Shown here: piece after piece, positions 3,210-16,669 of the stretch
Position numbering within the stretch: the stretch's first letter is position 1
Layout: each line of letters starts with the position of its first letter
IMG/VR virus record: IMGVR_UViG_3300025326_000125
Location: 1 to 36,313 of that record
DNA: 36,313 nt
Source of the DNA: a virus
Direction: 5' to 3' (one strand)
Position numbers and translations under genes: made by a program
The notes under the pieces: generated by a model
The model's database searches: none
The model's input: the letters and a program-made list of their open reading frames with translations, nothing else
Told to the model about the DNA's origin: nothing

Positions 3210-3250
3210 TATATTAGTTTAGGTTTATTTTATTGTCTTCAAAGAATTTT
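3210..3250. repeat. 41-bp direct repeat, copy 1
   Basis: An exact 41-bp sequence covering the 3' end and stop region of the Ala/Asp-rich gene recurs at 3778-3818, at the 3' end of the upstream gene. Both copies encode the same C-terminal FFEDNKINLN and a short stretch after the stop. Identity at the DNA level shows a recent duplication or gene conversion. Confidence 0.9.
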
Positions 3251-3765
3251 ATAACCGCTGTAATGAATGCCTTTTTATAAGCAGCATCAGCAGCATCAGC
3301 ATCAGCAGCATAAGCAGCAGCATCAGCAGCATCAGCAGCATAAGCACCATAAGCAACAGCATAAGCAGCAGCAGCAGCATCAGCATCAGCATCAGCATCA
3401 GCAGCATCAGCAGCATAAGCAGCATCTCGCCTCTTTGCAAGCAAATCGTCTCGCGTTATTTTACCGGCATTAAAGTCATCTATTGCATCCAAGCACTCAC
3501 GAACTCTTTTGTCATTTGGGTATTTGTTTTCGTAAATAGGCAATACGACCCTAGCTAATATTAACGCAAGGTCAATGCGGTTTTTGGTAGTCATTTCACA
3601 CGCATTAATAAACCACCAACGTTTGTCTTTCATTGGTATTTCGGAGTTCATTATATCAGCGATGGTGATTTCATTCTGTTTAATGAACGAAAGTTTTTCT
3701 GCCTGTTCTTCGGAATAGCAGCCGCGATTATCCATCACGTATTTAGGGGTGAATACTGATTTCAT
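3214..3765 (-). CDS. Ala/Asp/Tyr low-complexity repeat protein
   Basis: A 183-residue protein. The N-terminal 110 residues look like a normal helical domain (MKSVFTPKYVMDNRGCYSEE ... DDLLAKRRD). About residues 112-165 are a degenerate repeat of Ala with Asp or Tyr at every second or third place, encoded by a GCA/GCATCA/GCATAA-type tract on the plus strand at 3280-3424. The last 11 residues, KFFEDNKINLN, are identical to the C-terminus of the next gene upstream. Alanine-rich AAY/AAD repeats of this sort are known from many phage proteins of unknown function and are predicted helical. The tract can probably change length by slippage. Starts 16 nt after the preceding stop. Confidence 0.7.
   Translation of the reverse strand: MKSVFTPKYVMDNRGCYSEEQAEKLSFIKQNEITIADIMNSEIPMKDKRWWFINACEMTTKNRIDLALILARVVLPIYENKYPNDKRVRECLDAIDDFNAGKITRDDLLAKRRDAAYAADAADADADADAAAAAYAVAYGAYAADAADAAAYAADADAADAAYKKAFITAVIKFFEDNKINLN
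3276..3428. repeat. Trinucleotide-type low-complexity tract (GCA/TCA/TAA units)
   Basis: About 150 bp built from gcagcatcagcagcataagc-like units in varying order, all in multiples of three. It encodes the Ala-Asp/Tyr region on the minus strand and generates long spurious ORFs (Leu/Met-rich and His/Gln-rich) in other frames. Expected to be length-variable. Confidence 0.85.
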
Positions 3766-5325: not shown

Positions 5326-5841
5326 TTAGTTCAAAATTGGCTGCTCAATATTTACCTCAACTTTGCTAAGGTTTTCAATTAGCTTTTTAGCGCCTTCATT
5401 TTTTGAACGTTCTCTTAATAAGAAGTTACAAATTGCACAGAATTTCAGGGCAAATTGTTGCATACTTTTACGACTTGTATTTAACTTCAGTGAACGTCTC
5501 ATTTCAATAGTTGAGCCTACAGTGGTATCAACTTTAAAGCCCCCAAGTTCAATTGAAATGTTTATAGTTTTGGCTAAATTAAATTCCTTACCTTTTATTA
5601 CTTTACGAAGTAATAAATATTCAAAAAGTTCATTTAACGCAAAACCATAAATTTTGTCTTTATCAAGTTCCTTAAAGTCGCCTTCGTATGTGCAAATCAT
5701 TTCGGCATTTGAACGGTCAATTTTTTCTTGTGTAAATTTCACCTTTAAAACTGATAGTTCGATGTTTTCGCTAATTTGCTCAACATTAACGCTATTTTCA
5801 ACAATTGGTTGAATAATAGCAACTTTTGATTTTTTCTTCAT
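5326..5841 (-). CDS. Hypothetical protein (171 aa), monocistronic
   Basis: A 171-residue protein with a Lys-rich start (MKKKSKVAII), a beta-rich central part (ISIELGGFKVDTTVGSTIEM) and a helical C-terminal third with QQFALKFCAICNFLL followed by a charged tail. No membrane segment is convincing and no family is recognised. It is the first leftward gene of the divergent region and is transcribed alone, between an AT-rich leader and a strong terminator. That position is typical of early regulators or replication accessory proteins in phages, but nothing in the sequence proves DNA binding. Confidence 0.7.
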   Translation of the reverse strand: MKKKSKVAIIQPIVENSVNVEQISENIELSVLKVKFTQEKIDRSNAEMICTYEGDFKELDKDKIYGFALNELFEYLLLRKVIKGKEFNLAKTINISIELGGFKVDTTVGSTIEMRRSLKLNTSRKSMQQFALKFCAICNFLLRERSKNEGAKKLIENLSKVEVNIEQPILN

Positions 5842-6678
5842 ATATATAGATTTAGATTGTTTCTATTTATACATAATCCTTTCAATCAATAACCTTTAGA
5901 GTTAATGTTGTTAGGCTTACATTAAGGAAAGAACTTAATCCGCTTATATCGGCTCATGTTATTGAGCAGTATAAAAGAACTTTTGTAAATATACAGGTTT
6001 AACGGTCACATATATATAAAAGTTACGTTATTTATATAAGTATTTTATAGTATATATAGTAATCAAGCATTTATAAACGTTATTAATATTGATTCTAAAT
6101 AGTATAATTGTGCTATATAATGAACGCGCGCGCGTGGTTCAATATAGTATTATAGTCATTATACTTACATCCTATTGTAGTATAATAGTAGCTAATCAGT
6201 TTAATACTGTTTAAACAATACATGTATATACAACGATTAGTTAAGTAGTATAGTAGTATATACAATAGTTGTATAAGTATATATAGCAGTGAATGAATGT
6301 ATATACAATTGATACAAGTACAATAGTTATGCAATGGTTAACTGCATGATAATAAGGTGATGATGATAGGTGGGTTACACTAATACTTCAACCAACACGC
6401 CTCATCTCCCTGACAATCAACAACATATACATTATCCGATTACAATTGGCTATAATACTGGTAGTCAATATGCCATCGCTGTGGCTCAGGCTAATAGGCT
6501 GTACTAATTGAAGTATTAATTAAGGTAAAGATAGTTAAGGCTTTGACTTTTAGCGATTTGCGCATTATACATTTTCCTTTTATAATGGTAGGGGCTGTTA
6601 CTATTATATAGTACCTCCCACCATAGACACCGAATTTTGAAACCTATATCAATTCATAAGTATACCGTACCGAATACC

Positions 6679-6698
6679 ATTTGATTATCCATTTGCAT
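6679..6698. repeat. 20-bp repeat (CATTTGATTATCCATTTGCA), copy 1
   Basis: Matches 6829-6848 with one difference (A/G). A partial relative (TCTATCCATTTGGATA) lies near 6749. Spacing of 150 bp between the copies. Candidate iteron or operator. Confidence 0.7.
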
Positions 6699-6793
6699 AA
6701 GCATTTCGATTCAACAAGCATCCTTTTTCTCCAGAATCAATGCTAAATCTATCCATTTGGATATGCCGGAAATTAAAAAGGTGGGGGTATATT

Positions 6794-6815
6794 AAGTACC
6801 TAAGTACCGGTACTT
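6794..6815. promoter_or_regulatory. Triple half-site AAGTACC: direct repeat plus 14-bp palindrome
   Basis: AAGTACC, one T, then the perfect palindrome AAGTACCGGTACTT: two direct half-sites and one inverted, spaced by 8 and 7 bp. This looks like a binding site for a dimeric regulator with an extra half-site. It lies between the two copies of the 20-bp repeat. Confidence 0.5.
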
Positions 6816-6828
6816 CCGACACGGACTG

Positions 6829-6848
6829 CATTTGGTTATCCATTTGCA
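6829..6848. repeat. 20-bp repeat (CATTTGGTTATCCATTTGCA), copy 2
   Basis: Second copy of the element at 6679-6698, one mismatch, followed by an A/T-only stretch (6850-6885) such as could be easily unwound. Confidence 0.7.
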
Positions 6849-6930
6849 ATGCTATTTATTTATTAATATATTAATATACTTATTTATTATGCACGGATAG
6901 CACACACAACACTGTTTTTAAATCAACGGC

Positions 6931-7035
6931 ATGAAAAAAAGGAAACAAGAAAGGATGAAGGAAAAAGAAAAGTTGATAAGGGCTACGCATGAAACCCGAA
7001 GGAGCGTAAGCCATGATTACTATAATACTACATAG
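6931..7035 (+). CDS. Possible 34-aa highly basic peptide
   Basis: ATG 6931 to TAG 7033-7035 encodes MKKRKQERMKEKEKLIRATH followed by ETRRSVSHDYYNTT. The first 25 residues are nearly all charged, which would form a basic helix. It is the first rightward frame after the divergent region and sits in sequence noticeably less AT-rich than its surroundings. There is no supporting promoter or coupling, and A/G-rich sequence easily yields Lys/Arg/Glu runs, so it could be chance. Confidence 0.3.
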   Translation: MKKRKQERMKEKEKLIRATHETRRSVSHDYYNTT

Positions 7036-7213
7036 GGAGGAAGTGATTGATTTTAAAGGCATTGTTTAAATTCGTTTACTACTAAACAATAAAAGAATAG
7101 GGGTTTTTAGGATGTTGGTTATTTTCAATTTGTTACAGCGTTTTTCTATAGACATCAGGAACACACTTTGTAGTATTTTGGACGCTTTTGTAATTTGTAT
7201 TAAAATATTTCTA

Positions 7214-7221
7214 TATCTTTG
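7214..7221 (+). promoter_or_regulatory. TAnnTTTG -7 box (TATCTTTG)
   Basis: TATCTTTG with an upstream TTTG (7194-7197 region) fits the Bacteroidota promoter form TTTG/TAnnTTTG, although the spacing is on the short side. Transcription would start around 7228, producing a leader that contains the tRNA-like element and then the genes from 7400. Confidence 0.5.
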
Positions 7222-7309
7222 TAGTGCCCTAGATGGGGAATGTACATCAGCAGCTTAGCAGAGTTGTAGGAGTGGCGGAGGTTAGTTCGTCACTCTGAGT
7301 TTTTAATAA

Positions 7310-7384
7310 CGCGGTGATTGGTTCGGACATTATTCGATATTGCTATCACAACATTGTTTTTGGGTTCGAGTCCCGATGCCGCGA
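7310..7384 (+). tRNA. tRNA-like element, probably degenerate
   Basis: A 75-nt stretch with a 7-bp acceptor stem (CGCGGTG at 7310-7316 with TGCCGCG at 7377-7383, two G-U pairs), a discriminator A, and a textbook T-arm (TTGGG-TTCGAGT-CCCGA at 7360-7376). A D-like stem ATTG/CGAT (7317-7320 with 7335-7338) closes a loop containing GG. The usual two-base linker at positions 8-9 is missing, and the anticodon arm pairs poorly (TTG with CAA around a 6-nt loop CTATCA). The 3' end is followed by CTA, not CCA. I therefore cannot assign an anticodon. It may be a decayed tRNA, a structural mimic, or an attachment-site relic. Confidence 0.4.
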
Positions 7385-7399
7385 CTAAAAGTAAATTGA

Positions 7400-7630
7400 A
7401 TGGATGTGAATTTGGAATGGAAGTTTGGAGAAATTAAAGATGAGATTTGTGCCGCGTTAAGTAACCTTGGCGCTAACCATGAATTACTTTCAACTATTGG
7501 AAGCTGGGGAGATACGATGGATAATGAAGAAGTTTTAGATTCTTTGAAGTTATTAAATTCCGGCAGGAGTATTTTTAGTAAAGTTGAATGTACTGCACCG
7601 GTTAGAGAATTAAACCCAGATAACGATTAA
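7400..7630 (+). CDS. Hypothetical protein (76 aa)
   Basis: A helical acidic protein (MDVNLEWKFGEIKDEICAAL, then a Trp-Gly-Asp turn, EEVLDSLKLLNSG and a C-terminal disordered tail). No recognised domain. It is the first solid rightward gene, starting 15 nt after the tRNA-like element and downstream of the 7214 promoter box. It heads a short block leading to the Acb2-like gene and the amidase. Function unknown. Confidence 0.65.
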   Translation: MDVNLEWKFGEIKDEICAALSNLGANHELLSTIGSWGDTMDNEEVLDSLKLLNSGRSIFSKVECTAPVRELNPDND

Positions 7631-7632
7631 TT

Positions 7633-7746
7633 ATGACGGCATCAAAAGTACAATGTTTTTTAACTTGGCTTGAATGGTTCAAGTCAGGTAGTAACGCTAA
7701 ACCAAATGTAAATGCAAGGAAAGACGATTGGAGAAAAAAGAATTAG
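7633..7746 (+). CDS. Possible 37-aa peptide overlapping the Acb2-like gene
   Basis: ATG 7633 (2 nt after the previous stop) to TAG 7744-7746 encodes MTASKVQCFLTWLEWFKSGS followed by a Lys/Arg/Asn-rich tail. It fills the 80-nt gap between the flanking genes and overlaps the start of the next by 35 nt. The amphipathic N-terminal helix with Trp and Phe followed by a basic tail is protein-like, but the long overlap keeps the call weak. It might serve as a leader peptide for coupled translation. Confidence 0.4.
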   Translation: MTASKVQCFLTWLEWFKSGSNAKPNVNARKDDWRKKN

Positions 7747-7960
7747 GGTGGATTTATCGGCTACGGCCAAAGACCACGTTACTGCTTTCAAACAAAAGAC
7801 CGCTGAACTTATGAACGAACTTGAGTCAATTAAGTCAGTGGCAAAATTAAATGTGGCGATTCAGCAGGAAGATATGGCCGAGATTCAAAGGCTTTGCCAA
7901 ATTGCACAGACCCAACTTGAGACCGCTTCGATGTATATGACTAAAGCCCTTACGGTTTAA
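7712..7960 (+). CDS. Acb2-like protein, candidate anti-CBASS cyclic-nucleotide sponge
   Basis: An 82-residue, nearly all-helical protein. It opens with IGEKRIRVDL, continues with HVTAFKQKTAELMNELESI and closes with RLCQIAQTQLETASMYMTKALT. The pattern R-V-x-hydrophobic, K-x-x-TAxLhxxh, then R-L-x-x-hA-x-T-x-hExAxMxxxKAhT is how I remember the Acb2/Vs.4-type hairpin family. Members of that family bind cyclic di- and trinucleotides and so blunt CBASS defence. Family length is about 80-100 residues, as here. Assignment comes from memory of the family pattern; ligand residues cannot be checked. Its stop overlaps the next start as TAATG, so the two are probably co-translated. Confidence 0.6.
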   Translation: MQGKTIGEKRIRVDLSATAKDHVTAFKQKTAELMNELESIKSVAKLNVAIQQEDMAEIQRLCQIAQTQLETASMYMTKALTV

Positions 7961-8223
7961 TGACCCCCCAAGAAAAATACTCTGAACGCCAAAAATGGTT
8001 TGCCGATAGAATTGGTAAACGAATTTTTAGGAATCAAACCACGTGTCCTTGTGAGGTGTGTTTGGATTCTTGGAATGATGGAGTGTTGATTCAGGACGAT
8101 GTACACGCAAGCTGCTGCCATGATTTTGAAGGCTCGTCAACTAATGACGGTTCGCCACTTCGGTATTTTGACACGAAAGAAGAAGCAATTGAATTTCAGA
8201 AATCTATAAAACAAGAAGTATGA
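7960..8223 (+). CDS. Conserved phage hypothetical with Cys motif (RQKWFADRIGKRIFR)
   Basis: An 87-residue protein. It starts with an amphipathic basic helix (RQKWFADRIGKRIFR), then CPCEVC at about residues 24-29, a glycine turn, HASCCHDFEG and a C-terminal FDTKEEAIEFQ helix. The Cys/His set could hold a metal, though the spacing is not a standard zinc finger. I recall proteins of this build in many Bacteroidota phages, without a known function. Its start overlaps the Acb2-like stop (TAATG) and its stop overlaps the amidase start (ATGA), so all three are likely translated together. Confidence 0.7.
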   Translation: MTPQEKYSERQKWFADRIGKRIFRNQTTCPCEVCLDSWNDGVLIQDDVHASCCHDFEGSSTNDGSPLRYFDTKEEAIEFQKSIKQEV

Positions 8224-8885
8224 TTATAGGAGCCACAAAACAACCACTTTCTTTGGCACAATATTTTGCTGCTGAGCACCCAAAAACACAAATTTATTTA
8301 CACCATACGGCAGGTAACGCAAATCCAAAAGGAGTTGTAAAAGGGTGGGAAGCAAACGAAGAACATGTTGCAACCGCATTTGTTATTGGAGGAGACCCAA
8401 AGAAAAACACCACATGGAAGGATGGTGAAGTTGTTCAATGTTTTGATGAGAAACATTGGTCGTATCATCTTGGACTACAGACAATTACTTTTTCTAAGAG
8501 AGGGATTCCTTATCAATCACTCGATAAAATTTCAATCGGCATCGAGGTTTGTAATTGGGGATACCTAACCAAAACAGACAGAGGCTTTACAACATATGTA
8601 AATACAACTGTGCCGGACAATGAAGTTGTTGAATATACCGGCCTTTTTAAAAAGAAACGTTATTACCATAAATACACCAATGCTCAAATTGATGCCGTTG
8701 GAAAATTATTGAAAGCCTTGCGTGATGAATATAAAATTCCGTTAACTTATAACGAAGATGTTTGGGATATTTGTCTGCGCGCTTTAAAAGGTGAGGCAGG
8801 AGTGTTTACCCATAATTCGGTTAGGACTGACAAGAGTGACGTTCATCCGCAGAAGGAGTTAATTGATATGTGGAAGGGGCTGTGA
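8220..8885 (+). CDS. N-acetylmuramoyl-L-alanine amidase (Amidase_2 / PGRP type), endolysin
   Basis: Cleaves the bond between N-acetylmuramic acid and the L-Ala of the peptide stem. A 221-residue single-domain protein with zinc-ligand candidates H28/H29 (YLHHTAG), H83 (WSYHLG) as part of the active-site face, H198 and the RTDKSDVHP loop (202-210). That order is typical of Amidase_2 family enzymes related to T7 lysozyme. IGIEVCNWG is the conserved core strand. No signal peptide or cell-wall-binding domain, so it would need a holin or virion delivery. ATG overlaps the preceding stop by 4 nt. Because it lies directly before the fibre module, it could be either the lysis enzyme or a virion-associated hydrolase. 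Confidence 0.88.
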   Translation: MIIGATKQPLSLAQYFAAEHPKTQIYLHHTAGNANPKGVVKGWEANEEHVATAFVIGGDPKKNTTWKDGEVVQCFDEKHWSYHLGLQTITFSKRGIPYQSLDKISIGIEVCNWGYLTKTDRGFTTYVNTTVPDNEVVEYTGLFKKKRYYHKYTNAQIDAVGKLLKALRDEYKIPLTYNEDVWDICLRALKGEAGVFTHNSVRTDKSDVHPQKELIDMWKGL

Positions 8886-8926
8886 AAAAATTTTCGGAAG
8901 AACCTGCGGTGTATTAAAATAAACAA

Positions 8927-8934
8927 TATATTTG
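8927..8934 (+). promoter_or_regulatory. TATATTTG -7 box before the fibre gene
   Basis: Exact TAnnTTTG match 16 nt upstream of the fibre ATG in the only sizeable gap (65 nt) of this stretch. No clear -33 TTG is seen, so a phage-specific factor may be involved. The same 8-mer precedes the genes at 15887 and 20918. Confidence 0.55.
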
Positions 8935-8950
8935 GTGCAAACTAATTGCT

Positions 8951-11146
8951 ATGGCTGTTTCTTTTGCTATTCAAGGTCAGTGGATTTTTACTACTGACCC
9001 TCTTTATATAAATACTATTGTTCCAGTTAATCTTGGTGCAGTTACAAACATTACAAGGGAGAAGAAAATTATTGACGAGGTGGAAACATTTATCGTCAAT
9101 TTTTATTTAAACACATCAACAAAAACAGACGGCTCCACCACAGGAAGGCAAGACCAAGTTGAGTGGCGGTTTACGGATGTGGCAATTGTAGATAATTTCT
9201 TTGACCAATTTGCCGCACAAATTTCAATTGATGGCATCTCTTGGCCGGCTCCTTCTTTTCAAAACTCCGGTCAGTGGATTTTTACATCAGACCCAGCACA
9301 TCAAAACAACCTCGTTCCCGTAAACCTTGACGCAGTTACCCACATTACCCGTGAAAAAAGAATCACCGGTGGAGTTCTTTATCATATTATTAATTTTGTG
9401 ATGAACACTTCCAGCAAAGGGGACGGCTCAACATCAGGAAAAATTAGCGACATAGAGTGGAAGTTTACAGACGTAACGATAGTTGATAATTTCTTTACGC
9501 AATTTGCGGCACTTATTTCAATTGATGGAATTCTTTGGACAAGCCCATCGCCAACCGCTACCGCATGGAGGTTAAACGGAAACACGGTTAATGGCGAAAA
9601 ATGGTTAGGCACTATTGATGCTTTTGATTTGCCGTTTCGGACAAACAACATTGAGAGGTTTGAGATTGGGACAACAAATGTTTCCTTGCGAAACATAGGA
9701 AGCGCGTTTGATGTTGTTTTAAATAACACGCTGTTAACGGCTAATAGGACGTTTGAATTTCCTGACAATTCAGGAACATTAGCGCTGCTATCTGACATTC
9801 CTGTTGTTACGGCTGGATGGGCTCTTGACGGTAACACAGTAGTATCAGAAAAATGGTTAGGCACTATTGATGCTTTTGATTTACCATTTAGAACCAATAA
9901 TGTTGAACGGGCAAGAATTTTAGCAAGTAATGGAAATTTTGGTATTGGAATAACAGCACCAACAAATAAATTATATGTTGCTCAAGACTCTTATTCTGGT
10001 ATAGCTAAGTTTGATGGTTTTTTTGGTGCTCCCTTTAATGCTTTTGAAATTGACTTAAACGGTAATACTATTTCATATCAATATTCAAGAGCTACTTTAG
10101 GTATTTCTTTTGGGGCATCAGGATTTTTGGCTGATTTTATGGTTGCACCAAACACATGGACATTTGAGTTTGGAAATACAACTATAAAAAACGATTTGGT
10201 TTCAACATTAAATGAAACAGTTTTTCAAAATCCGTTAAATCGGTTTTATTGGAGAGATTCAGTTGGCACGAAACAAATGTATCTTAATTCTACTGCACTA
10301 GGGGTTGGTGGTACACCAACATCAGGAAGGAGATTAGACATTCTTCAAAATACTGCAACTGTTTCTGTTGGAAGTTTAGTTACATCAACAGGTGAAGGTG
10401 GTATATGGTTTAATGCTGCCGTTCCAAGTGATACTAATGTTAGATTAAATTCAAGCAGTGGAGCAACTAGATTAAATGGTGTTGCTGGAAATCTTTTATT
10501 TGCTATTTCTGGAGTTACTAAAATAACAATGGGAACGGCTGGACAACTCAGTACTTCATTTACTACAAGTAGTGGAGTTGCCTTTACTTCATTTGGCTGG
10601 ACAATACAAGCAAGTAATACAGTTCCAGCATCAACAGAAATGATTGATGTAAACTGGAATTTATCAGCTACAAAACAATGGTCAGCCGGTGCTCTTGCTA
10701 CACAAAGAGATTTTTTAATACAGCCGAGAACTTATACAGCAGTAGGAGCAAGTGTATTTACTACTGCTTCTACATTTACTGTTGCTGGTTCTCCAATTGC
10801 AAGTACTAATATAACAATTACACGTCCATTAGCTTTATGGATACAAACAGGTGAAAGTTTATTTGGTGGTGCTATTGCCTTTCCTTATAGAGCTAGTGCC
10901 ATAGCAACATCATTTACTGCGGCAGATGGAACAATAGATGCTACTGGTGCTGGTGCTTATACAGTAACGCTTGAAACAGCAGTTGGTTGTACGGGTAGAA
11001 TTCATGTGCTTAAAAATTCAGGAGCAGGATTAAAAACACTAGATGCTGCTGGAGCAGAGTTAATTGATGGTGCTTTAACACAACCATTATTAGCAGGTGT
11101 TAGTTTAACAGTTCAATCAACAGGAACAGGGTGGATAATAATTTAA
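8951..11146 (+). CDS. Tail fibre / receptor-binding protein with duplicated N-terminal modules
   Basis: A 731-residue protein. Residues about 7-104 and 105-203 are two copies of one module (GQWIFTTDP ... TDVAIVDNFFDQFAAQISIDGI). Next come two copies of WLGTIDAFDLPFRTNN (about residues 216 and 300) with FEFPDNSGTLALLSD between them. Then follows a beta-rich, Ser/Thr/Gly-rich shaft (GNFGIGITAPTNKLYVAQ and similar). The last 80 residues (FTAADGTIDATGAGAYTVTL ... VQSTGTGWIII) look like the C-terminal beta domain common in Bacteroidota phage fibres. A host-recognition role follows from this build and its place before small accessory genes. The N-terminal modules probably attach to the virion. From about 9,930 the DNA becomes visibly more AT-rich, suggesting exchange of the distal part. 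Confidence 0.82.
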   Translation: MAVSFAIQGQWIFTTDPLYINTIVPVNLGAVTNITREKKIIDEVETFIVNFYLNTSTKTDGSTTGRQDQVEWRFTDVAIVDNFFDQFAAQISIDGISWPAPSFQNSGQWIFTSDPAHQNNLVPVNLDAVTHITREKRITGGVLYHIINFVMNTSSKGDGSTSGKISDIEWKFTDVTIVDNFFTQFAALISIDGILWTSPSPTATAWRLNGNTVNGEKWLGTIDAFDLPFRTNNIERFEIGTTNVSLRNIGSAFDVVLNNTLLTANRTFEFPDNSGTLALLSDIPVVTAGWALDGNTVVSEKWLGTIDAFDLPFRTNNVERARILASNGNFGIGITAPTNKLYVAQDSYSGIAKFDGFFGAPFNAFEIDLNGNTISYQYSRATLGISFGASGFLADFMVAPNTWTFEFGNTTIKNDLVSTLNETVFQNPLNRFYWRDSVGTKQMYLNSTALGVGGTPTSGRRLDILQNTATVSVGSLVTSTGEGGIWFNAAVPSDTNVRLNSSSGATRLNGVAGNLLFAISGVTKITMGTAGQLSTSFTTSSGVAFTSFGWTIQASNTVPASTEMIDVNWNLSATKQWSAGALATQRDFLIQPRTYTAVGASVFTTASTFTVAGSPIASTNITITRPLALWIQTGESLFGGAIAFPYRASAIATSFTAADGTIDATGAGAYTVTLETAVGCTGRIHVLKNSGAGLKTLDAAGAELIDGALTQPLLAGVSLTVQSTGTGWIII
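9596..9882. repeat. Exact 35-bp intragenic repeat in the fibre gene
   Basis: The 35 bp at 9596-9630 recur at 9848-9882 and encode EKWLGTIDAFDL in both places. The following codons keep the amino acids (PFRTNN) but differ at third positions, so the duplication is older outside the exact core, or has been partly converted. Confidence 0.85.
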
Positions 11147-11156
11147 AATTAAAGTT

Positions 11157-11390
11157 ATGAGTTATATACCAAATACACAACAAGCAGGAATGGAAAACTT
11201 TGTTAGTCAAAAAACTAGAAATGTATCTTTTCAAGTTCCCTATATTACTGTTCCCTACATTACATTAACCTTGGATAATAATTCTAATTCTATCCCATAT
11301 AAAATTAATGTAACCACAACTGGATTTCAGATAAAATTCCAAACTAATTATACAGGTGAAGTAGCATGGACATCTCAAACAATTCAATAA
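11157..11390 (+). CDS. Small beta-rich fibre-associated protein (77 aa)
   Basis: A 77-residue protein without Cys, rich in Thr, Asn and aromatic residues in alternating pattern (QVPYITVPYITLTLDN, VTTTGFQIKFQTNYTGEVAW). This suggests a small all-beta domain such as a fibre tip or receptor-binding adaptor. It lies 10 nt after the fibre gene. No family named; lectin-like function is only a possibility. Confidence 0.6.
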   Translation: MSYIPNTQQAGMENFVSQKTRNVSFQVPYITVPYITLTLDNNSNSIPYKINVTTTGFQIKFQTNYTGEVAWTSQTIQ

Positions 11391-11391
11391 T

Positions 11392-11982
11392 ATGAAAATA
11401 GGACTTAAAATAATTGATAATTTTGAAGATGTTATCTTTGCTGATACACTTCCAAATGACTATACGGATATTACATCTGTTGCTAATTTCATTAAGTATG
11501 GAACTTTTTATTTTAAAGATTATAAATGGCTCCGTAAAAGATTTCAAGAATTTACTTGGGACGATTTAACTGCTGATGAAAAAATATTAGTTGCTCAAAA
11601 AAGAGGAACTACAATAGCTAATTGTAAATCTGTCCTTGAAGATTCTTATGAATACTGGATGACTGATTTTGATTTACAGAGTGTAGCCTGTAGAAAACAT
11701 AGATTTGCTTTTGCAAAAACAGTTTTAATAAAGAATGTTGCCACAGCAGATTTATATACTATTTTAGGAAGTCTAGGTGGACTAGCAATTCAGTATTCAG
11801 ACTATGGTGTTGAGGGAACTACTGAAGGTGACCCAATTGAGGGGTTGTTTAACTTTATTGAGGCTACCGGAAGTTATTCTGCAAGTGGAATTTTGGCAAT
11901 GACACTAACAATGTTAAACTCAGTTACTAAAGAAGAAATGGTAACTAAAATGATGGACTGTTTAAGAAATGGAAATTATTAA
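11392..11982 (+). CDS. Hypothetical protein (196 aa) in the fibre module
   Basis: A mixed alpha/beta protein. It has an acidic, aromatic N-terminal part (FADTLPNDYTDITSVANFIK), a charged middle (RKRFQEFTWDDLTADEKILV) and a C-terminal hydrophobic helical part around LYTILGSLGGLAIQ and ILAMTLTMLNSVT. The second hydrophobic stretch is not long enough for a sure membrane segment. It starts one base after the previous stop and shares the AT-rich composition of the fibre distal part. Could be a fibre chaperone or a baseplate component; no motif supports a choice. Confidence 0.6.
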   Translation: MKIGLKIIDNFEDVIFADTLPNDYTDITSVANFIKYGTFYFKDYKWLRKRFQEFTWDDLTADEKILVAQKRGTTIANCKSVLEDSYEYWMTDFDLQSVACRKHRFAFAKTVLIKNVATADLYTILGSLGGLAIQYSDYGVEGTTEGDPIEGLFNFIEATGSYSASGILAMTLTMLNSVTKEEMVTKMMDCLRNGNY

Positions 11983-11997
11983 TAAAAAATAGAAATT

Positions 11998-12237
11998 ATG
12001 CAATATGAACTTAAAACTTTACATTTAGCTGGTTCAGCACAACGTAAAGATGTAGATACATTTAACCAACCAATAACTATTGTTGTTGGTGTTGTTGGTC
12101 AAATTTATGAAGGGTTTGAAAACAGGGATGCTTATTTAGCAGAGTTTCCGGCAACAGGACTAAACGCTGATGAGATTGAAGCATTGCTTTATACACAGGC
12201 ACAGGCTTATGTAACTGCCACTTATCCTAATACATAA
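11998..12237 (+). CDS. Hypothetical protein (79 aa) in the fibre module
   Basis: A small protein with an N-terminal beta hairpin (YELKTLHLAGSAQRKDVDTF, then ITIVVGVVGQIYEG) and a helical C-terminus (LNADEIEALLYTQAQAYVTA). No recognised motif. It lies between the 196-residue hypothetical and the hydrolase gene, whose GTG start follows its stop directly. Function unknown; position suggests a virion or fibre accessory role. Confidence 0.55.
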   Translation: MQYELKTLHLAGSAQRKDVDTFNQPITIVVGVVGQIYEGFENRDAYLAEFPATGLNADEIEALLYTQAQAYVTATYPNT

Positions 12238-12238
12238 A

Positions 12239-12793
12239 GTGACTATATCTGAAAAATATAAGTTATTACGACCACGAATTTCTGATGGTGATTTAATTCT
12301 GTTCAAGGGAACTGGAATTGTTGCTAGAACAATTCGTTGGTTTGATAGTTCTTATTATTCTCATATTGGAGTAGTTGTTGAAAAACATGGGGCTTTGTTT
12401 ATTGTAGATTCTAACGGAAATGGAGTACAAGCTGATAGATTATCTTGGAGAATTAATTCTTATAAAGATAAAGCTGATTTCTGTATTATGAAACCACTAC
12501 ACGATGCTCAGACAATAAATATTCACATGAATCATTTATTAAAAAAAAGTGATGAGAAGTGGATTAAGTATGATTTTAAGAATGGATTAAAGGAAATGTT
12601 TAATCGCAAATTTAAAACTAAGTTTAAAATAACTCTTAATGATGAAAGGGATATTTGTTCTGACTTTGTGAGTAAATACGCTTCTTCATTAGGACTTGTT
12701 AATATAGGATTTCTTGATTTACCAATATCATTTCCTCAAGATTACACTAGGTTTATGAACGGCATGAATGTTATGGTAATAAACGGAATTTAA
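12239..12793 (+). CDS. Permuted NlpC/P60-like (YiiX/YebB-type) cysteine hydrolase
   Basis: A 184-residue protein starting at GTG (12239). GDLILFKG (residues 17-24), then YYSHIGVVVE with H42, then DICSDFVSKY with C140. The order His before Cys marks the circularly permuted branch of the papain-like NlpC/P60 superfamily (YiiX/DUF830-like). Members hydrolyse peptide, amide or thioester bonds, often in the cell wall or in lipids. In a phage fibre/lysis region, peptidoglycan cleavage during entry or lysis is the likely job. No signal peptide. There is no in-frame ATG before GDLILF, which supports the GTG start. Confidence 0.72.
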   Translation: MTISEKYKLLRPRISDGDLILFKGTGIVARTIRWFDSSYYSHIGVVVEKHGALFIVDSNGNGVQADRLSWRINSYKDKADFCIMKPLHDAQTINIHMNHLLKKSDEKWIKYDFKNGLKEMFNRKFKTKFKITLNDERDICSDFVSKYASSLGLVNIGFLDLPISFPQDYTRFMNGMNVMVINGI

Positions 12794-12798
12794 TAAGC

Positions 12799-13218
12799 AT
12801 GAGTCAGAACAAGGAACGATTTAGGGTTTATGGAGCTAACGTTCCTGTAAATTTAAAAGCCTGTTTTTATTGTAAGGCAAGTTTAGATGATTATGACCGA
12901 ACCGTTGACCATCTTATTCCTGAAAGTCGCGGAGGAATAAGAGCCAATAGCAACAAGGTTCCTGCGTGTGAGGGGTGTAATCGGCTAAAGGGCGACATGA
13001 CTCCTGATGAATTTAAGCGCGCTCTTTGCGCCATGATTAAGCTTGAAATACGTGAACACAAAAAGCGTTATGGTTATTTAAGAAAAATTGAAATATCTGT
13101 TGAAGAAATAATAACATCTAAGAAGCCCGAAGAAAGACGCGATGATACCCAGACTGTCGTTGCGCATCCAAAACAACGACATGAAAAAAACGTTTCACCT
13201 GTTACACGCGGAGCTTGA
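12799..13218 (+). CDS. HNH endonuclease
   Basis: A 139-residue protein with a compact HNH fold: C22-x2-C25 and C57-x2-C60 as structural zinc ligands, D37-H38 (TVDHLIPESRGG) and N52 as catalytic or metal residues. The C-terminal half is basic and probably binds DNA. It starts 6 nt after the hydrolase stop and overlaps the next gene. HNH nucleases encoded next to terminases assist packaging cleavage in several cohesive-end phages, and that is the likely role here. A free-standing homing nuclease is the alternative, but the close packing argues against a recent insertion. Confidence 0.88.
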   Translation: MSQNKERFRVYGANVPVNLKACFYCKASLDDYDRTVDHLIPESRGGIRANSNKVPACEGCNRLKGDMTPDEFKRALCAMIKLEIREHKKRYGYLRKIEISVEEIITSKKPEERRDDTQTVVAHPKQRHEKNVSPVTRGA

Positions 13219-13741
13219 CCGCATAAAAGATAGGTTAGTTTCCATTGATACTATCTTTTTTTTAGACAAAGAAACAGGCGAAATGATTCCTGTTGCCGAG
13301 TCTATTCCTGAAGAAGCTGAGCTTTTAATACAAAAAATTAAGCGCAGAAAATCATCTTCCATGAAGTTCATTATGATGTATCAAGAGTCAAGTGAATACG
13401 TTTCAAAAACACTCTCCTCCAGCTCTGCTAAAATACTCTCACTCTTCGTTGGTAAAATGTCATTCGATAACTGTGTTTATGGGTACAGTTATCGAGACAT
13501 TTCCCGTACACTTTCCATGTCAACAAAAACTGTTGGCAGAGCCGTTAATGAAATGGAACTCGCAGGAATTGTCAACATCCACAAACAAAAAGGCAGAATG
13601 GTTTATGTTATAAATCCAGCTTACGTGTGGAAGGGCTCTTTTTACAAGATACAAGATAAGTTGGGCGGATTTAAACAGCAAATGATTAACGAGAATTCGT
13701 TTTTAAAAGCAAGAAAAGAAAATGCAGAAGGTCAAGATTGA
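13181..13741 (+). CDS. Winged-helix protein, RepL-like; replication initiator or small terminase
   Basis: From ATG 13181 it encodes 186 residues; a frame-compatible ATG at 13142 would add 13 and overlap the HNH gene by 77 nt, so the later start is preferred. The C-terminal half holds a helix-turn-helix (YSYRDISRTLSMSTKTVGRA, then VNEMELAGIVNIHKQKGRMV) and ends YVINPAYVWKGSF. That arrangement, with the INPxxxxKG tail, resembles plasmid RepL-type initiators. Its place directly before the large terminase, and overlapping it, is where a small terminase normally lies, so a packaging-initiation role is also possible. Confidence 0.6.
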   Translation: MKKTFHLLHAELDRIKDRLVSIDTIFFLDKETGEMIPVAESIPEEAELLIQKIKRRKSSSMKFIMMYQESSEYVSKTLSSSSAKILSLFVGKMSFDNCVYGYSYRDISRTLSMSTKTVGRAVNEMELAGIVNIHKQKGRMVYVINPAYVWKGSFYKIQDKLGGFKQQMINENSFLKARKENAEGQD

Positions 13742-15797
13742 CGACATATTTACCGAAGACCCTGACAGGGTGATGACTTCTCAGTGGAAGCCTAACCATG
13801 AGCCGTTAGATTATCCTACGGAATTTGTTAAGTGGATTAACTCTATGAATAGTGGGTGGCGCAACATGACGTATTACGAACCGTTTGAGCTGTACGTAAA
13901 ACAAGCCGAACAATGGTGTAGAGAAGAAGATGAAATTTTAAATTACAGGGATGAGGAAACACAGGAAGATTATATTTATCAGGAATACAAAAGATGTGAC
14001 GACAATACTTTGTATTTCGCCAACAAATACGGATATATCAAGGACGGTGATATTGAGGGTGGAGAAACCCGATACAAGGCGTGGAGAGCTCAGCAGATAA
14101 TTTTATTTTTACTTGATTGCGGCTACAACCTCCTTATTGGAAAGGCAAGGCAGATTGGTTTTACAACCACGCTTGGCCTCGCTGCCGACAAGCGAATAAT
14201 ATTCCGTAATTCTTATTTTGTAAAGTTTATTACTCACTCTGAAAAGAAGGGTAGGGAAATTTTTCGAGACAAGATTCGGTGGGCATTTGGAAAAGTACCC
14301 AACTGGCTTCGTGAAGAAGTTTATAATGATGCCAATGATGTTTTGTCAATGGAAAGCAAAGCGAACAAAGGAGAAACAGAAGGTAAGTATTCTCGTGTTG
14401 AAGTGGTAGCTCCGGTTGTTGACGCTATTAATGGTGGTTCGCCAAACTTAGTTCTTGTAGATGAGATTGGCTCAATTGAAATTTTTGGACAAATGGTTGC
14501 AGAGGGTCGTCCTACTTTATTCCAGTTTGAGGTTGCTACCGGAAGAATGAAAATGAGAAGACAGCTTGTTGCTTGGGGGACTGGCGGTGAAATGGACAAG
14601 GGTGGCGCAGTGTTTGAGTCAGAGTTTAAGGCCGCAATGGAGGCTTGGCGTAAAAAGAATTTTTCTTATGGAATTATTCCGCTGTTTTTTGATGCGTATG
14701 CCCGTCAAGGAATGAATGACACTATTTATGAATCCGAAAAAGCTGTCTATTATAGTAAGACAGGAGTGGAGGCTGAGATTTCAAAAGTGCAATTCCACCA
14801 GCACTACCCAATAACTTACGATGATATGTTCTTACGAAAAGCCAGAACAATTATACCGGTATCTGACTGTAATAAGCATCTACTTAGAATATATAATCTT
14901 AAGGTTGAGCAGTCTCCGCAGTACGGATACTTTGAGCCAATTTTTGATAAATCAAAACCAACTCCAGACGGGGTGTTGCCTTATAAATTAATTGGCTCAA
15001 GCTGGATGCCAACCGGCTCTGAGTCTGACGACAGGACTACCGCTGTGATTCATAAACACCCACCTCATGGTGAGGTTTGGGATTATCGCTGGTATCAGGG
15101 CACTGACCCTATAAACTCGCAAACAGGACACTCAAAAATGTCCTCATCTGTTTGGGATGCCTATGAAAACACGTTTTCCTCTGTGGTGTTTTGGAGGACG
15201 CGATTGTTTAAGGAATGTTATCTTCAATGCTTACTTCAAGGACTGTATTATGACCAACGGAATCTTGGCGGAATAAAAGAACTTCTTGAGAGTAATATCG
15301 GTGACATGTATCAGGATTTTCAGGAACAACTAGGGTTTGACCGGAGGCTTGTGGCTAATGCTGCGCTGCCTATTCCGTTGCAAACTACAAGCGGAAAGTG
15401 GTTCGGAATAAACAATAGGTCAAACACCGCCTCTGGAATAACTAACCGGATTATTGAAATGATTGACAGTTATGCTGATAATATATCTATTCCTTGGCTG
15501 TTTGTTCAGTTAAAGACGTTTGTGGAAAAAGACCTAAGTCACGGTGATTCGCAAAGACAGACAAGGTATCAGGCCGCTGACCGTAAACGAGACTATGATG
15601 ACGTTATCTTTTCTATGGCATTTGCTTATATAAACGCCCAAGCACACAATCGCTTTGAGCCTACAAGAATAGACATTGAACAAGCAAGTAAGCCAATAAT
15701 TAAGGTCATCCAAGATGGTCGTACAAATTTTAAACAAAGAAGGGCTGTTGTTAATAAAGATGGAAAAATAATAAGATTTTTAAGCGATGGGCGTTAG
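13722..15797 (+). CDS. terL: Terminase large subunit
   Basis: Packages DNA into the prohead with ATP, then cuts it. A 691-residue protein with a Walker-A-like GKARQIGFTT at about residues 143-152 and Walker B plus catalytic Glu at LVLVDEIGS (about 242-250). A coupling region WGTGGEMDKGG follows. RNase-H-type nuclease acidic residues appear in YQGTDPINS (about 457) and RDYDDVIFSMAFA (about 620). Walker A of the KxRQxGxTT sort is found in crAss-like and several other phage terminases. The length is in the usual range of 550-750 residues. It overlaps the winged-helix gene by 20 nt and is followed by a gap with a promoter box. Confidence 0.93.
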   Translation: MQKVKIDDIFTEDPDRVMTSQWKPNHEPLDYPTEFVKWINSMNSGWRNMTYYEPFELYVKQAEQWCREEDEILNYRDEETQEDYIYQEYKRCDDNTLYFANKYGYIKDGDIEGGETRYKAWRAQQIILFLLDCGYNLLIGKARQIGFTTTLGLAADKRIIFRNSYFVKFITHSEKKGREIFRDKIRWAFGKVPNWLREEVYNDANDVLSMESKANKGETEGKYSRVEVVAPVVDAINGGSPNLVLVDEIGSIEIFGQMVAEGRPTLFQFEVATGRMKMRRQLVAWGTGGEMDKGGAVFESEFKAAMEAWRKKNFSYGIIPLFFDAYARQGMNDTIYESEKAVYYSKTGVEAEISKVQFHQHYPITYDDMFLRKARTIIPVSDCNKHLLRIYNLKVEQSPQYGYFEPIFDKSKPTPDGVLPYKLIGSSWMPTGSESDDRTTAVIHKHPPHGEVWDYRWYQGTDPINSQTGHSKMSSSVWDAYENTFSSVVFWRTRLFKECYLQCLLQGLYYDQRNLGGIKELLESNIGDMYQDFQEQLGFDRRLVANAALPIPLQTTSGKWFGINNRSNTASGITNRIIEMIDSYADNISIPWLFVQLKTFVEKDLSHGDSQRQTRYQAADRKRDYDDVIFSMAFAYINAQAHNRFEPTRIDIEQASKPIIKVIQDGRTNFKQRRAVVNKDGKIIRFLSDGR

Positions 15798-15813
15798 TGA
15801 ATTGAAAAATAAT

Positions 15814-15821
15814 TATATTTG
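15814..15821 (+). promoter_or_regulatory. TATATTTG -7 box downstream of terL
   Basis: Exact TAnnTTTG match in the 89-nt gap after the terminase. A start site near 15,828 would give a leader of about 60 nt carrying a small hairpin (AGTCG/CGACT around 15,850-15,866) before the ATG at 15887. Confidence 0.55.
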
Positions 15822-15886
15822 TGCAGTTACACTGTTATTAACCAATACTGAGTCGTTATAGCGACTTTGTGTAAAACCCTTTAATT

Positions 15887-16669
15887 ATGGCACAGAAACC
15901 ATTTGAAACCGCAGTTTTAAACCTTTTATTAGGCGCTGCAAACACCGACCTTACGGGCGGAAAATTCACCGTGTTAGACAACGCTGGTGTTGAGCTTTTA
16001 ACTAGAATCAGAACTACTGATGGTACTTCTTTTTCTAAAGCCGCTTATTCAGCAGGTGTGGCCTCTGAAAAAGATTACGACTTAACTGGGATTTCCTTAT
16101 TGGCAAATTCACAATATCGCCTAACGGTTGCTATTGATGGTCGTGTTGATTTTTCAAGTGGTGGCGGAAAAGAAACCAATGCTCTTTTTATTACTCGTGA
16201 GTATGTTGTTTCAACAGGAACATCCGTACCAACGGCTGATGACATTAAAGACCTGTTTATTGAAAGAATTAACCTTGACCAATTTGCTGGAGTAACAGCT
16301 TCAAGCGGTGGTGTAGGAATTCTTACATTAGTGCTTGATAGCGTTAGCTTCGGTGACTTTGAAGTTGAAGCTCCGGTTGGTGCTGTTGAGGCGATTATTG
16401 TTGCTTATGTTGCTCCTTCAGGAACACCTTCAATTGTTGAAGCCTTAGCTCCGACAAAAAGCAGTCCTACTGCAAACTATACAACTTGGAAAATATCTTA
16501 TGACCGTCCATTCCGCAGCGGTGCTGTGAGTGGAAGTATTGTTAAGCAGCCTGAGTTTGTATATATTTTTGCGGATGCTTTGGCCGCGAACTACGCAGCT
16601 TTTGAAACAGCACTTGATGACATCTTAGATGGTAGTCACTTACCGGTTGCTGATTATTTAGGAATCTAG
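15887..16669 (+). CDS. Putative abundant virion protein (260 aa), function unknown
   Basis: A 260-residue protein with tail-tube or decoration-protein-like composition: Ala/Gly/Thr-rich, no Cys, alternating beta segments (TGGKFTVLDNAGVELLTRIR, YRLTVAIDGRVDF, ILTLVLDSVSFGDFEVEAP) and a short helical C-terminus (ALAANYAAFETALDDILDG). It has its own promoter box and terminator, so it is a monocistronic unit, as expected for a protein needed in large amounts. Codon use is more GC-rich and regular than in the fibre region. Candidates are head decoration, head-fibre or major tail-type protein; no motif decides. Confidence 0.7.
   Translation: MAQKPFETAVLNLLLGAANTDLTGGKFTVLDNAGVELLTRIRTTDGTSFSKAAYSAGVASEKDYDLTGISLLANSQYRLTVAIDGRVDFSSGGGKETNALFITREYVVSTGTSVPTADDIKDLFIERINLDQFAGVTASSGGVGILTLVLDSVSFGDFEVEAPVGAVEAIIVAYVAPSGTPSIVEALAPTKSSPTANYTTWKISYDRPFRSGAVSGSIVKQPEFVYIFADALAANYAAFETALDDILDGSHLPVADYLGI

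Follow-up and report, generated by a model that had tools for sequence, protein, structure and literature searches.

Gene organization of the locus

The virus record analyzed here comprises 36,313 bases and is classed as a linear contig; this whole stretch is referred to as the window. A second record, IMGVR_UViG_3300025322_000300, matches window positions 5723-16131 with 99.96% identity across 10.4 kb and, judged by this match, is the same phage. Past 7.4 kb the plus strand encodes, in this order, a 76-residue open reading frame, an 82-residue protein, an 87-residue protein, an amidase and a 731-residue protein (Table 1). Beyond the latter, an HNH nuclease, a terminase-like protein and a portal follow further along. 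The genes of the 82- and the 87-residue protein meet in a TAATG at 7958-7962, where the TAA stop codon (7958-7960) shares its final A with the ATG at 7960. The next junction is an ATGA at 8220-8223, in which the amidase ATG at 8220 overlaps the TGA (8221-8223) of the 87-residue frame. An earlier reading made from the DNA letters alone (the sequence-only reading) had described both frames and both couplings, which are exact in the sequence, and its downstream amidase agrees with the Amidase_2 match. The amidase product is probably an endolysin.

Table 1. Position of the genes and key codons discussed in the text (window coordinates)
Feature	Position	Strand	Basis
82-residue Acb2/Tad1 hairpin-domain protein, candidate cyclic-oligonucleotide sponge	7712..7960	+	Pfam PF24729, relatives, AlphaFold2
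Arg12 codon, place of the ligand-stacking Tyr8 of T4 Acb2	7745..7747	+	column counts
Lys27 codon, aligned to T4 Acb2 Lys23	7790..7792	+	column counts
Thr67 codon, aligned to T4 Acb2 Thr68	7910..7912	+	alignment, column counts
87-residue CxCxxC protein, separate phage family, neighbour	7960..8223	+	relatives; no profile match
Amidase_2, N-acetylmuramoyl-L-alanine amidase	8220..8885	+	Pfam PF01510 2.6e-13; phrog_1794 lysis 5.8e-10

Three further elements were noted in this part of the genome. At 7307-7388 lies a sequence resembling the 3' end of a tRNA (GGGTTCGAGTCCCGATGCCGCG), with a favourable predicted fold (-25.1 kcal/mol, z -2.5); neither ARAGORN nor Rfam made a call there, and the element might belong to an attachment site or represent a decayed tRNA. 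A 37-residue open reading frame, MTASKVQCFLTWLEWFKSGSNAKPNVNARKDDWRKKN, at 7633-7746 on the plus strand lies in another frame and overlaps the start of the 82-residue gene. On the minus strand, a 183-residue protein (3214-3765) matches the Imm5-like family PF21805 (1.6e-8) and the Imm5 immunity protein PF14423 (2.7e-6).

The 82-residue protein belongs to the Acb2/Tad1 hairpin family

Judged from its sequence, the 82-residue open reading frame is a genuine gene and did not arise by chance. A model trained on 73 relatives, with the window protein left out, scored this protein at 71.4 bits; among 10,000 shuffles of its letters no score exceeded 15.4 bits, and the reversed sequence reached 2.3. 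Its identity to phage proteins reaches at most 43%, across nearly the whole length. The protein matches Pfam PF24729 (Acb2/Tad1 hairpin) with 30.8 bits at a curated cut-off of 27 bits; residues 15-81 are aligned to positions 5-57 of the 58-position profile, and no other Pfam family was matched. The record, searched in all six frames, gave the same family once more. The 82-residue protein is thus a true member of the Acb2/Tad1 hairpin family, as the sequence-only reading had supposed. Those members of the family that have been studied soak up alarm molecules with which bacteria respond to phages. The C-terminal motif quoted there in support was approximate, and the actual C-terminus reads RLCQIAQTQLETASMYMTKALTV. 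A phmmer search of the PDB sequences with the 82-residue protein returned nothing useful. A PADLOC match to JetA (0.0019), which spanned 54 residues in a model of 486 positions, was dismissed as noise from helical sequence.

The protein structure was predicted with AlphaFold2 from 13 sequences (mean pLDDT 83.7). The monomer model contains helices at residues 6-11, 21-46 and 52-81, which form a short N-terminal helix and a long antiparallel helical hairpin. This is the anatomy described for Acb2, with one short and two long helices (PMC12043709), and the helical hairpin expected earlier was thereby recovered. In a search of viral structures the best two matches of the model were both named Acb2/Tad1 hairpin (probability 1.00), and Foldseek found no significant match to it in the PDB. 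Superposition on T4 Vs.4/Acb2 (7uq2) gave a Z of 7.2, the highest among the matches listed, with an rmsd of 2.7 over 67 residues and 21% identity, a score that many unrelated helical bundles reach as well and that is no proof by itself. Going by the Pfam family name, the hairpin domain is also common to Tad1 (Thoeris anti-defence 1). However, Tad1 carries an antiparallel beta sheet at its N terminus (PMC12043709), whereas our model has no strand and lacks this N-terminal sheet.

A distinct branch of phage-borne relatives

The 82-residue protein falls into a distinct branch of the family with the signature GExRV[RK]xxFNPS...VxxIKxK[ST]AEL. Relatives found by tblastn come from 146 Flavobacterium phage records and from Enterobacter phage EcP1, and the listed phage records of the branch are all annotated as hypothetical. 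Profile scans of IMG/VR yielded 105 confirmed stretches, 80 of which were kept. The branch occurs in no fewer than 105 stretches of IMG/VR and in some 150 phage records. The relatives are phage-borne; one was located on a bacterial-assembly contig, a Flavobacteriales MAG. All 11 of the relatives' records tested against PF24729 passed the cut-off. PF24729 gave no match across 395 genomes from a single phylum (centred on G114), in a search where no control rang and absence is unproven. The hypothetical proteins of Flavobacterium phages VK58 and FCV-1 (ASD53381.1, QNI20078.1) belong to the same branch, with about 37-43% identity to the window protein and shared GEKR and KxKxAEL motifs. Unlike the window protein, they retain FNPS or LNPS and a phenylalanine at the place of T4 Phe82, and a different gene follows theirs instead of the 87-residue one.

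The relation of this branch to classical Acb2 was assessed with a set of 33 classical sequences, T4-like and p26-like. A model made from this set only assigned the window protein 11.7 bits, which is under the best of 10,000 shuffles (rank 5 of 10,002). As this model fails to separate the protein from shuffles, the link to classical Acb2 runs via the family and is not a pairwise one. Profile to profile, the branch and classical Acb2 were matched over 55 columns with a probability of 93% (E 2.8e-7, counting this single comparison). Moreover, the branch profile ranked T4 Vs.4 (7uq2) at the top of 177,635 distinct PDB sequences (E 0.0083).

Residues at the ligand positions

Reviews describe the Acb2 ligand as held by a salt bridge to its phosphates together with stacking (PMC10419184, PMC12043709). 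For T4 Acb2, the exchange Y8A disrupts cyclic dinucleotide binding and F82C abolishes Panoptes activation (PMC12657218), and T68M lowers binding (PMC12657230). The window protein shares 22% identity with T4 Acb2. Both have the PF24729-type helical hairpin and a similar C-terminal helix (IAKTKLKEASMWACRA compared with IAQTQLETASMYMTKA); T4 Lys23 and Thr68 align to Lys27 and Thr67. In contrast, the N-terminal IKGY of T4 is set against the GExRV signature, and Tyr8 and Phe82 correspond to Arg12 and Thr81, respectively. PaP2 p26/Acb2 (8h2j, 8ixz; 19% identity) has its D-L-S at the same place and differs by Tyr11 in place of Arg12. The register from the N-terminal segment into the first helix is ungapped: the tyrosine and lysine are 15 residues apart in p26 (Tyr11-Lys26) and T4 (Tyr8-Lys23), as are Arg12 and Lys27 in the window protein. 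The structural alignment to 7uq2 begins with residue 16 on residue 12 and hence has the same offset of four. Lys26 of p26 is presumably a ligand contact.

Column counts extend this pattern to the whole branch. The column of T4 Lys23 is lysine in 33/33 classical and 74/74 branch sequences. At the Tyr8 column, all 33 classical sequences have tyrosine, whereas the branch has arginine in 62, lysine in 11 and glycine in one (n=74). The Phe82 column is phenylalanine in 26 of the 33 classical sequences; in the branch, threonine occurs 63 times and phenylalanine 11 times. Basic residues are conserved throughout the branch or almost so: Lys27, Arg60 and Lys78 are found in all 74 branch sequences, Arg10 in 72 and arginine or lysine at position 12 in 73. 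On these counts, the branch has not retained the classical dinucleotide pocket, and the conserved basic residues would fit an anionic ligand. Since the stacking tyrosine is replaced, either the specificity would differ from that of T4 Acb2, or the dinucleotide pocket would be gone and another pocket used. For Acb2, separate dinucleotide and trinucleotide sites have been reported (PMC12043709). The exchange of tyrosine for arginine or lysine next to a retained lysine indicates that ligand or binding mode of the branch are probably unlike those of T4 Acb2.

A proposed sponge and its alternatives

Nucleotide binding by the 82-residue protein is plausible from its residues, and in the best-supported reading the protein is probably a phage sponge of the Acb2/Tad1-hairpin type that would hold a cyclic nucleotide alarm signal during infection. 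Functional Acb2 is a homohexamer that takes up cyclic di- or trinucleotides, gives them back unaltered and blocks CBASS. In the proposed mechanism the protein would be made during infection, and its hairpins would assemble, Acb2-like, into a compact oligomer in which basic residues would hold the ligand between protomers. As a stoichiometric sponge without catalysis it would keep a host signal, of CBASS or a related system, sequestered and uncut, and the suicide effector would stay off.

The same fold could also serve another job without cyclic nucleotide binding, for example as a small oligomeric scaffold or as a binder of another anionic partner in phage growth. The missing aromatic residues speak for this, as the stacking tyrosine is absent from 74 of 74 branch sequences and Phe82 from 63, and so does the differing N-terminal signature, GExRVxxxFNPS. 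However, Lys27, Thr67 and several basic residues vary little or not at all across the branch. Moreover, p26, a solved Acb2 structure, is also without an aromatic residue at the place of Phe82; therefore, an aromatic residue is not required there. We consider such a different job unlikely.

A second alternative concerns the window copy itself, which could be a diverged, non-functional sponge. The Phe-Asn-Pro signature, kept by 69-72 of the 74 sequences, is replaced by Leu15-Ser16-Ala17 and the conserved Val77 by threonine. Nevertheless, the reading frame is intact, the branch-invariant Gly7, Lys27, Ala31, Arg60 and Lys78 are all present and the fold is predicted with confidence, and a decayed copy is improbable.

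Returning to the sponge, the GExRV-FNPS branch might tentatively be regarded as a large class of candidate sponges that carry arginine or lysine for the stacking tyrosine and hold a different signal. This could possibly be a cyclic trinucleotide, gcADPR or a messenger as yet undescribed. If this is true, the branch points to a messenger in the defences of the hosts that these phages infect. If the branch members are sponges, counter-defence in many phages goes unseen by annotation. PF24729 already covers the 82-residue protein; what can be tested is the exchange of tyrosine throughout the branch, a uniform change that makes the ligand question directly accessible to experiment.

The 87-residue protein and further neighbours

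No match above threshold was obtained for the 87-residue protein in Pfam, PHROGs, NCBIfam or PADLOC. A relative is present in a genome of the searched phylum and in its prophage record, and further relatives were recruited with a degenerate DNA pattern for WFxDRIGK. The resulting family comprises 39 distinct sequences. All contain WFxDRIGK, in most cases with [VI][YF]R behind it, then a CxCxxC and usually HA. This WFxDRIGKxVYR-CxCxxC-HA arrangement marks a widespread small phage family, with members in the window and at L168, L183, L162, L101 and L113. Its three cysteines and the histidine suggest a putative metal site. One weak match (L098) was dropped, as it lies opposite unrelated open reading frames and contains a stop. 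The AlphaFold2 model of the protein had a mean pLDDT of 70 (41-49 in the other four models) and gave no structural match worth reading.

The sequence-only reading had suggested that this protein may share a counter-defence block with the sponge. As one conserved unit of sponge, 87-residue protein and amidase, this draws on the TAATG and ATGA overlaps, which look like the usual tight packing of phage genes. The distribution of the two families argues against it. The sponge family was present in 129 fetched stretches and the 87-residue family in 63, and the overlap consisted only of seven copies of the window phage; therefore, the pairing is not conserved. PF24729 gave no match in the genome holding the first 87-residue relative, nor in 18 whole records with such relatives, a search without a control of its own; the same PF24729 search did give matches for the records of the 82-residue relatives and for the window record. 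As the records are partly fragments, single absences prove little and it is the total that counts. Moreover, one well-placed 87-residue relative lies in another prophage, within a stretch devoted to recombination and DNA metabolism. A conserved counter-defence unit of the three genes is thus highly improbable and the joint block was not upheld; the best explanation is that the 87-residue protein, a member of a separate CxCxxC family, and the amidase have separate functions and are packed beside the 82-residue gene.

Further downstream, the 731-residue protein (8951-11146) contains internal near-repeats near 9596-9637 and 9848-9889 (95% over 42 bases). The sequence EKWLGTIDAFDLPFRTNN occurs twice in this protein, with internal repeats as in tail fibres.
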